Origin: Paenibacillus andongensis
GTDB lineage: Bacteria > Bacillota > Bacilli > Paenibacillales > NBRC-103111
DNA: 64,000 nt
Assembly: GCF_025369935.1 (NCBI RefSeq)
Contig: NZ_CP104467.1
Coordinates: forward strand, 6,145,001-6,209,000
Direction of reading: 5' to 3'
A model generated the notes under the pieces. It worked only from the letters and a program-made list of their open reading frames with translations, ran no database searches and was not told where the DNA came from. The position numbers were made by a program, and so were the translations under genes. This document shows, one piece after another, positions 12,273 to 62,332 of this stretch (its first letter is position 1; the number at the start of each line of letters is the position of its first letter).

Positions 12273-12278
12273 TATAAT
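12273..12278 (+). promoter_or_regulatory. -10 element before the repeat-bearing leader
   Basis: A perfect TATAAT with T-rich DNA upstream but no recognisable -35. It would start a transcript near 12285 whose leader consists almost entirely of the hairpin module at 12292-12331. Confidence 0.4.
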
Positions 12279-12291
12279 AAGCTTTAACGAA

Positions 12292-12331
12292 GATCCCAAG
12301 CGGAAAGACTTTGAGCAAGCTCAAAGATCCC
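12292..12331 (+). repeat. dispersed leader repeat, copy A (hairpin plus GATCCCTATAT before SD)
   Basis: The segment GATCCCAAGCGG-AAAGACTTTGAGC-AA-GCTCAAAGATCCC is nearly identical, in the same sense relative to the gene, to the tandem units in the thrS leader (55634-55733, reverse strand). The central CTTTGAGC/GCTCAAAG arms form an 8-bp stem. In both loci the unit is followed directly by CTATAT and then the SD (GGAGG at 12339-12343 here), so the similarity runs into the ribosome-binding site. Confidence 0.85.
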
Positions 12332-12350
12332 TATATATGGAGGTGCAGCA

Positions 12351-12458
12351 ATGTTCGGCTTATCAACAACATTTTGGCTCGTTAACACTGTTTTTGTATT
12401 ATTCATCGTCGCTATGATGACGGCTTCCTATAACGAGGATAAAACCAAAGGTCTATAA
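12351..12458 (+). CDS. 35-residue single-pass membrane peptide
   Basis: A small ORF with a strong ribosome site (GGAGG, 7 nt spacing) reads MFGLSTTFWLVNTVF followed by VLFIVAMMTASYNEDKTKGL. It is one transmembrane helix with a short charged cytoplasmic or external tail. It is not a member of a family I can name. Support for it being real: a promoter-like TATAAT, the conserved leader repeat, the SD, and a terminator 16 nt after the stop. The leader module shared with thrS is the most interesting property. Confidence 0.7.
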   Translation: MFGLSTTFWLVNTVFVLFIVAMMTASYNEDKTKGL

Positions 12459-53681: not shown

Positions 53682-55616
53682 TTAAAGCTTCTTGCTTATT
53701 TCCTCGTTAATCATGCCAATGACTTGTTCAATCGGATGGGTACCTAGATCCCCTTGACCACGTTTTCGAATAGATAAGCTTTCGCTCTTCACTTCGTTTT
53801 CACCGACAACTAGCATATAAGGAATTTTCTCCAACTGCGCTTCTCTAATCTTATAACCCAACTTCTCATTGCGATTATCTGCTTCAACACGAATACCAGC
53901 TTCGCGTAGACGCTCAGTCACGAGATTCGAGAATTCTTCGAATGCCGGAGACACCGGAATGACCTTGGCTTGGATAGGCATTAACCAAGTTGGCAGCGCA
54001 CCAGCGAAATTCTCAAGCAAGAAGGCTGTCATACGCTCCATAGTACTGATAATCCCTCTGTGAATAACGACTGGACGATGTTTTTGACCATCTTCGCCTG
54101 TGTATTCAAGCTGGAAGCGTTCTGGGAGCAAGAAATCAATTTGCGCTGTTGAAAGTGTTTCTTCTTTCTTGAGTGCTGTTTTGATTTGAACGTCAAGTTT
54201 AGGACCATAGAAGGCAGCTTCACCCTCAGCCTCGTAGAAAGGAAGCCCTAACTCTTCTACAACTTCACGCAGCATGCGTTGGGAAGTTTCCCACATTTGA
54301 TCATCTTGGAAATACTTTTCAGTATCCTTAGGATCCCGATAGGAGAGACGGAAACGGTAGTCTGTAATTCCGAAATCCGCATAAACCTGACGAATCAAGT
54401 TCACAACGCGGGAGAACTCTTCTTTAATTTGATCCAAACGACAGAAAATATGAGCGTCATTCAGTGTCATGGCACGAACACGGTGTAGACCTGTTAAAGC
54501 TCCTGACATTTCATAACGGTGCATAGTGCCAAGCTCAGCAATTCGAATCGGCAGATCACGGTAGCTGCGCATATCGCTTTTATAAACCATCATGTGATGC
54601 GGACAGTTCATTGGACGTAGAACAAGCTCTTCGTTGTCCATCACCATTTTCGGGAACATATCCTCGCTGTAATGATCCCAGTGACCAGATGTTTTGTACA
54701 ACTCAACATTAGCGAGAACTGGCGTGTAAACGTGTTGGTAACCCAAACGCTCTTCCAGGTCGACAATATAACGTTCCATTGTACGTCTTAATTTAGCACC
54801 GTTTGGCAGCCAAAGCGGCAATCCTTGCCCAACCTCGCGTGAAAAAGCAAACATTTTAAGCTCTTTGCCCAACTTACGGTGATCACGTTTCTTCGCCTCT
54901 TCCAATAGATGCAAATGCTCATCCAACTGCGCTTTCTTAGGGAAAGCAGTGCCGTAAATACGCTGCAGCATTTTGTTCTTCGCATCTCCGCGCCAGTAAG
55001 CACCGGCAACGCTCAATAATTTGAATGCTTTGATTCGGCCTGTTGATGGAAGATGCGGCCCGCGGCATAAATCAAAGAATTCACCTTGGTCATAGATCGT
55101 TAGTACCGAGTCTTCCGGCAGGTCACGAATCAATTCCAGCTTAAACGGATCTTCCATTTCAGTGAAAATGCGAATCGCTTCCTCACGGGAAACAACACGG
55201 CGAGTAATCGCCAAATTCTCACCTGAAATACGCTCCATTTCCTTCTCGATTTTCACCAAATCTTCAGGATTAAGCGGTGTTTCCAAATCGATATCATAGT
55301 AAAATCCGTCTTCAATGACAGGTCCAATCCCTAATTTAACAGCTTTCTCACCATAAATACGTTTAATCGCCTGAGCCATCAAATGCGCTGTGCTGTGACG
55401 ATACATCTCTAATCCCGCTTCACTATCGAGTGTTAGAATTTCTACGTCTGCATCATTTTCCAGAGAGAACGACAGATCCACGGATTTCCCGTTAACTTTG
55501 CCGCCAATCGCATTTTTCTTCAGTCCGGATGAAATGGATTCCGCCACTTGTTCAATGGTCGTCCCAACCGCGTACTCTCTAACCGCGCCATCTGGTAATT
55601 TCACTTGTACAACCAT
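53682..55616 (-). CDS. thrS: threonyl-tRNA synthetase
   Basis: A 644-residue class II synthetase: N-terminal TGS domain ([17 protein letters not shown]), editing domain with [20 protein letters not shown], catalytic core with the zinc-binding [12 protein letters not shown], class II motifs [37 protein letters not shown] and [16 protein letters not shown], and a C-terminal anticodon-binding domain. ATG at 55616 with AGGAGG 8 nt upstream. The frame is open 65 codons further, but only because the 36-nt leader repeat lacks stops. Controlled by the T-box upstream. Confidence 0.96.
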
Positions 55617-55633
55617 GTTTGTTCCTCCTAATA

Positions 55634-55735
55634 TAGGGATCTTTGAGCGTAGCTCAAAGTCTCTCCGCTTTGGGATCTTTGAGCACAACTCAAAGTCTCT
55701 CCGCTTTGGGATCTTTGAGCGTAGCTCAAAGTCCG
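55634..55735 (-). repeat. 36-nt tandem repeat in the thrS leader, about 2.8 copies
   Basis: Three copies of the CTTTGAGC-N2-3-GCTCAAAG hairpin are linked by GATCCCAAAGCGGAGAG spacers with a strict 36-nt period. They lie between the T-box terminator and the SD. The copy nearest the gene is followed by CTATATTAGGAGG, matching copy A at 12292. The middle copy has a mutated arm (ACTTTGAG-TTGT-GCTCAAAG). There are no unique spacers, so this is not a CRISPR. Confidence 0.88.
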
Positions 55736-55744
55736 ATTTTAGTA

Positions 55745-56040
55745 CATTTTTGAACGCAAAAAAGCACACTGCATCCCATAAGGGACGAGTGCGCTCAGCT
55801 CGTGGTTCCACCCTAGTTCGATTCGCTGCATGCCCATAGGGGTAAGGCGAATCCTCATCAGCATTCGGTAACGGGAATGATTCCGGTATTGTATACTAAC
55901 GATCCTGCTAGTCAGGTCGAATTCCACAATACGGCTACAAAGGGGTAAACGATCTGAATAGCTGAAGGAGATTGCAGCCTAGTCTCCTCTCTCTGAGCAG
56001 TTCTTGCAGAAAGTTCATGTCTTTGATAGTAACGCCTTCG
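55745..56040 (-). ncRNA. T-box riboswitch of thrS
   Basis: The reverse-strand leader contains the T-box core AGGGTGGAACCACG (55801-55814), a stem I with the AGAGAG-type motif near its 5' end, and the intrinsic terminator just before 55758. Uncharged tRNA-Thr pairing to the core should stabilise the antiterminator and allow thrS transcription. I could not assign the specifier codon with confidence. Confidence 0.88.
55758..55795 (-). terminator. T-box-controlled terminator
   Basis: GCGCACT..TCCC / GGGA..AGTGTGC stem and six T residues, directly downstream of the T-box core with which it competes for pairing. Confidence 0.88.
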
Positions 56041-56046
56041 ATCCCT

Positions 56047-62156: not shown

Positions 62157-62181
62157 GGAAAATCAAAGTCAATGTCCTTCT

Positions 62182-62307
62182 CTTATCTCCCAGATTCGCT
62201 TTAATCAGCGTTTCCGCAAGAATTAGCACCGTGCATCCCTTTGCTTGCAAAGGTTTGTCGGTTGCCGGGTGTCATAGGGCTAGTCCCTCCACCTACTCTT
62301 GATAAGA
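62182..62307 (-). ncRNA. SAM-I (S-box) riboswitch of metA-metI-metC
   Basis: The reverse strand carries the conserved S-box pieces: CTTATCAAGAG (P1 and K-turn start), GGTGGAGGGACT, GCCCTATGA, ACCCGGCAACC, GGTGCTAATTC and the closing GAGATAAG. Terminator downstream at 62122-62156. High SAM should stop transcription of the methionine operon. Confidence 0.96.
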
Positions 62308-62332
62308 AAATGTAACGTATGCGATTAAAATT

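Follow-up and report, generated by a model that had tools for sequence, protein, structure and literature searches.

The window, i.e., the whole stretch of 64,000 nucleotides that was analysed, lies on the 7.64-Mb chromosome of a Paenibacillus of the P. alginolyticus group. It carries two unrelated genes that share a leader, one encoding a 35-residue (35-aa) membrane peptide and the other being thrS. The features of both leaders are as follows.

12273 to 12278, plus strand: TATAAT, putative -10 box of an extended promoter (TTGGGTATAATAA) of the 35-aa gene, assigned from the consensus
12288 to 12297, plus strand: truncated left-hand unit CGAAGATCCC, found at the same place in congeners G012, G026 and G027
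12298 to 12308, plus strand: linker AAGCGGAAAGA (consensus AAAGCGGAGAGA), read from the sequence
12309 to 12326, plus strand: palindromic hairpin CTTTGAGC-AA-GCTCAAAG (covariance model match in the own-genome search, E 3.8e-8)
12327 to 12338, plus strand: conserved right flank ATCCC plus TATATAT, the right end of the repeat
12339 to 12343, plus strand: Shine-Dalgarno sequence (SD) GGAGG of the 35-aa gene, present in repeat-free congeners too
12351 to 12458, plus strand: gene of the 35-aa membrane peptide (MFGLSTTFWLV...), conserved in all 30 congeners
55614 to 55616, minus strand: thrS start codon (TIGR00418)
55624 to 55628, minus strand: thrS SD, pre-existing in congeners with an empty site
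55641 to 55659, minus strand: thrS hairpin unit 1, gene-proximal
55677 to 55695, minus strand: thrS hairpin unit 2, imperfect, sense CTTTGAGTTGTGCTCAAAG, with one T-G pair
55713 to 55731, minus strand: thrS hairpin unit 3, distal, without the GAGAGA flank
55778 to 56041, minus strand: thrS T-box leader upstream of the repeat array (RF00230; L025:1679-1942, minus strand)

The shared leader had been described in a first-pass annotation, and the common hairpin, right flank, SD and ATG spacing were confirmed. Both leaders run GATCCC-TATAT-(A/T)(T/A)-GGAGG with the ATG 7 nt past GGAGG, and GATCCCTATAT, the SD and the SD-ATG spacing are common to the two. The hairpin formed by CTTTGAGC and GCTCAAAG is found once before the 35-aa gene (12309-12326) and in two exact copies in the thrS leader (55641-55659 and 55713-55731); shuffles gave 0.00 exact matches expected by chance. 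The unit content had to be corrected. The copy before the 35-aa gene includes the additional truncated unit (12288-12297) and amounts to "0.3 + 1" units; that before thrS has three, the imperfect one (55677-55695) lying between the two exact ones in an array with a 36-nt period and 2.7 copies according to TRF. Downstream of the -10 box, the 5' leader of the 35-aa gene consists of the repeat almost throughout, and the TATAAT motif is at the same place in nearly all 30 congeners. The thrS array sits between the SD and the T-box leader (Rfam RF00230, E 4.8e-15; 74.3 bits, under the curated cut-off of 93). The 35-aa gene is itself conserved nearly letter for letter in 30 of 30 congeners and is preceded by a conserved putative extended -10 promoter; its product had no NCBIfam match. 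A SAM riboswitch (RF00162, E 5.7e-13) lies elsewhere in the window (62180-62308, minus strand).

The unit of about 36 nt is composed of GAGAGACTTT, an inner stem that varies as long as it is paired, a loop of 2-8 nt, AAAGATCCC and the linker. Units stand alone or form tandem arrays with a 36-nt period; TATATTAGGAGG and the start codon come next, and each internal unit bears the SD-like GGAGAGA. The exact hairpin was found 36 times in the 7.64-Mb chromosome, the reversed control pattern 0 times. A covariance model built from 26 diverse units detected 86 units in 55 arrays in its own genome (E up to 1), excluding one extra entry that represents the same site on the opposite strand. Arrays comprised 1-9 units there and up to 11 in relatives. 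The repeat was present in 28 of 30 genomes of the same genus, but in only 3 of 74 other genomes of the family, with 2 to >60 copies; the named matches belonged to Paenibacillus of the alginolyticus group and one Cohnella. A plasmid, phage or viral vehicle was rejected, since the searched viral contigs, plasmids and phages held no match. In Rfam 15 at the gathering score, only the SAM riboswitch was matched in the window, and a relaxed search returned chance matches and the neighbouring T-box only, so that no Rfam family accounts for the repeat. Nothing relevant was found in open-licence PMC papers. On Rfam and these papers, it is provisionally regarded as an undescribed family.

Orthologous leaders were found in both empty and filled states. 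Among the 30 congeners, the thrS site was filled in G000, G019, G026 and G027 and empty in the others, with the SD present in both states. At the 35-aa gene, a full or partial repeat was present in G000, G012, G019, G026, G027 and G028, and the site was empty elsewhere (e.g., TTTAACCCTATAGGAGG). In a comparison of twenty further leaders, each in up to 10 genomes, empty/filled pairs were also observed at pgpA, at amine-oxidase-like, arsB-like, gyrI-like, permease, flavin reductase and IMPDH-like genes and at the gene of locus L046. The cleanest pair is that of the flavin reductase gene, where the unit entered CTAGTA/AAGGTGG (the slash marks the insertion point) with no loss and no duplication; in other pairs, a duplication of GGAG or TAGG is ambiguous. 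At pgpA, the empty ACATGCG/TAGGAGG compares with the filled ACATAGCT-unit-TAGGAGG, and at the gyrI-like gene the empty TTCAACCC/CTATTTAGGAGG compares with TTCAACCC-36-nt unit-TATATTAGGAGG. The empty permease site reads GAGCGG/GGGAT. The right insertion boundary was constant and the left one varied by several nucleotides; at the 35-aa gene of G012, G026 and G027, the left end begins within the hairpin. Such variable left ends fit a fixed-end transposon poorly, and the idea of an invariant 2-bp duplication (TA) at the target was dropped, as it is not seen at the left ends. Since orthologous empty and filled sites exist, the sequence comparisons show that the repeat moved and entered immediately 5' of (T)AGG(AGG), at a ribosome binding site already there. 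Losses and repeated gains are not distinguishable everywhere, since the distribution of filled and empty sites at a given gene does not cleanly follow the species. The unit number of arrays differs among species, and hairpins were identical in 62% of unit pairs within an array compared to 15% between arrays, which fits local duplication.

Empty sites were also seen at rRNA genes. Of the nine 23S operons, eight carried the empty sequence TA/GGTTAAGC or one close to it (once AGC/GGTTAAGC), and in the ninth the unit was placed exactly before GGTTAAGC. A derivation of the repeat from a 23S processing stem was rejected, since a 5' copy occurs in this one operon of nine, the site being empty in the rest. 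Separately, positions 1-1640 of L244 (genome 1495800-1497440) match the 3' part of 23S rRNA with 98.7% identity; the 23S 5' end was found at only nine other places, and the stretch may represent a tenth rrn operon, either partial or divergent.

The position relative to genes was counted for arrays whose last unit has a GAGC stem, an SD and a start being sought up to 45 nt from the ATCCC end. Such an SD and start followed in sense in 86 of 108 arrays (19/26 in the own genome, 67/82 in relatives), at 17-42 nt, mostly 17-27 nt, before the start codon, compared to an antisense SD and start off the left end in 4 of 108 (2/26 and 2/82). This association may partly mirror the training of the model on SD-linked copies, although internal units were in the training set as well. 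The hairpin base mostly lies 22-27 nt upstream of the start codon. Copies with other stems were less tied to starts (6/27) and include some that abut 23S, 5S or tRNA genes, which are older copies, or that lie antisense in the rplU-obg region. Downstream genes include ftsE, lon, aspS, thrS, melA, rsfA and sufD, as well as genes for an ECF sigma factor, FloA, a CitMHS/ArsB transporter, an IMPDH-like protein, PgpA, flavin reductase and sugar ABC components. Since these are mixed housekeeping genes, a single regulon behind the repeat is unlikely.

Other elements were observed at similar sites. A second, unrelated palindrome, GCTTACGAAG-N-AGTTTTCT-N-GAAAACTCTAAGGAGG, lies directly before SDs in six of the nine copies seen (L103:+, L105:-, L108:+, L128:-, L296:+ and L302:+, including those in front of the 35-aa gene in G020 and G013); the other three are located beside the first repeat, upstream of an ECF sigma gene. 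That another hairpin shares this type of site suggests something special about the position as well as about the element. The first repeat lies, in several species, within or immediately upstream of a different T-box leader, GCTAGC.GGATCG...AACTAGGGTGGTACCACGGG (L056, L079, L099, L111 and L167), and the right end of some copies adjoins yet another repeated sequence, CCCACAAAGTGAAGCTAAGCTCTGAAG, which may itself be mobile (L080, L090, L109 and L233).

Taken together, the locus is probably occupied by a non-autonomous mobile palindromic repeat of one Paenibacillus genus that rides SD sites and acts secondarily as a 5'-leader hairpin. The first-pass annotation had left the choice between an RNA element acting in cis and a mobile palindromic unit that had taken over the ribosome site. 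The mobile part is borne out by empty and filled sites, pre-existing SDs, many copies and one orientation; a regulatory RNA role was not apparent across the family and is possible at lon.

With orthologous empty and occupied sites at multiple unrelated loci, the repeat belongs to the broad class of mobile interspersed palindromic repeats, of which it is provisionally a variant whose sequence and SD habit match no described family. BOX of Streptococcus pneumoniae (boxA-boxB(n)-boxC) is likewise a short interspersed repeat with a variable number of central hairpins, predicted to form in RNA, and can join T-box leaders (PMC3049150), resembling the T-box composites seen here. However, BOX elements have terminal inverted repeats, duplicate their target and are enriched between convergent genes (PMC3049150), whereas the present repeat has a single unit type with a 36-nt period, no separate flank modules like boxA and boxC, no clear target duplication, an SD location and one orientation. 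MITEs such as RUP, Correia and Nezha are also non-autonomous, palindromic and confined to a species or genus. In contrast to these DDE derivatives, the hairpin is the sole inverted repeat and no target duplication is consistent, as the flavin reductase pair illustrates; no transposase lay between the inspected copies, and neither an autonomous copy nor a parent element was met among them.

A plausible alternative, though short of probable, is that the repeat was spread and kept as an mRNA stabiliser that raises expression, a hairpin plus SD in the manner of aprE, ermC and cryIIIA. According to PMC3997798, which cites STAB-SD and aprE work, mRNA of Firmicutes can be stabilised by a 5' stem-loop and/or a strong SD. 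The distance of the hairpin base from the start codon and the SD-like motif of the internal units are consistent with this. However, the hairpin is weak (-6 to -8.5 kcal/mol), and predicted SD accessibility did not differ between filled and empty alleles (Wilcoxon p = 0.42, 18 genes); on this prediction, insulation of the SD by the hairpin was rejected. The known leaders (aprE, ermC, STAB-SD of cryIIIA) share with the repeat the hairpin and SD at the mRNA 5' end, but serve single genes, whereas the repeat is dispersed. For a hairpin with an SD in the mRNA, stabilisation would be the most likely effect.

A true cis-regulatory RNA, i.e., a regulon leader in which GAGAGACUUU-hairpin-AAAGAUCCC is the site recognised by a protein or RNase and which genes gained on joining the regulon, is rather unlikely. 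In its favour, the place upstream of the SD is fixed, and the flanks and outer stem (CTTT/AAAG) are nearly invariant while the inner stem needs pairing alone and varies with compensation. Over 106 distinct units, 95% of the eight stem pairs were standard, and 81 double changes compared with 20 ± 3 in shuffles and at most 12 in slid controls. Thus, the expectation that many copies would precede start codons with compensatory changes held. Covariation alone is no proof of an RNA role, since DNA template switching between palindrome arms, as described in PMC8604942, also evens out both arms. Single departures from pairing showed no RNA-strand bias, neither family-wide (G-U 16, A-C 14) nor in terminal units at SDs (8:6), apart from a hint at lon. 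Moreover, the targets are without shared function, occupancy at most genes varies between close species, copies adjoin rRNA and tRNA genes or occur antisense, and no Rfam family matches. At lon, 23 of 30 species retain the repeat, and there is one remnant. Identity there was 0.98 in the flank GAGACTTT, 0.89 in AAAGATCC and 0.71 in the inner part, but only 0.37 (ungapped) in the 20 nt upstream of the repeat. All 144 cells of the lon stem are standard pairs (100%), one position being G-C, A-U or U-A, and one-sided changes were G-U only; the stem changes were counted as about five independent events. Since the repeat is kept, its flanks are conserved and single changes are G-U only, retention of the lon copy for an RNA function is possible, and from their sequences some copies are probably useful.

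Mobilisation as a REP-type element by a Y1 (RAYT/IS200-like) transposase, with CCTA/CCTT as short one-strand target on the antisense strand, is improbable. The clean pairs and the constant right boundary would suit it, and REP/BIME elements are likewise small hairpins with a short purine-rich flank in many extragenic copies. However, the Y1 domain PF01797 was absent from the high-copy genomes G019, G021, G026 and G027, with one weak partial match in G000, and the arrays are direct rather than inverted repeats and stand at SDs. A role of the repeat as a leader-region DNA operator, bound by a transcription factor, is very improbable: it is palindromic and recurs upstream of genes, but its loop varies from 2 to 8 nt and the inner half-sites are free to vary while paired.

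For the mobile repeat at SD sites, the following course is proposed. The right end CCCTATAT evidently inserts against (T)AGG(AGG), in practice the SD of existing genes, and the filled leaders indicate that SD and SD-ATG spacing stay intact. Arrays would then grow through local tandem duplication. The bias in position and orientation may arise from the target sequence, with every copy ending in an SD-like tail, and selection against copies that harm expression may add to it; pure selection instead of target choice could also produce the orientation bias. Movement may proceed via a single-strand transposase other than Y1 or by copying from SD to SD through short homology and template switching. 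The latter, a selfish hairpin without its own transposase, is a tentative and somewhat doubtful proposal: each copy ends in a consensus SD, and short homology would let the unit copy to other genes, always in sense and at the ribosome site. This hypothesis would account for position and orientation as well as for the variable left ends, with no enzyme required. In mRNA, the hairpin base, about 22-27 nt before the start codon, would lie just outside the initiating ribosome, and hairpin and SD could shield the 5' end from RNases, a use for which the lon copy seems to have been kept.

Interspersed bacterial repeats usually settle where harm is small. This repeat instead enters at the translation start, where a gene is most sensitive, and leaves it unbroken. 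If SD-to-SD copying is true, it would yield a gene leader that is transferable and variable in copy number. With leaders of 0-11 hairpin units, the related species form a natural series that could serve to test how mobile repeats become regulatory leaders and whether SD sequences are targets of mobile DNA.
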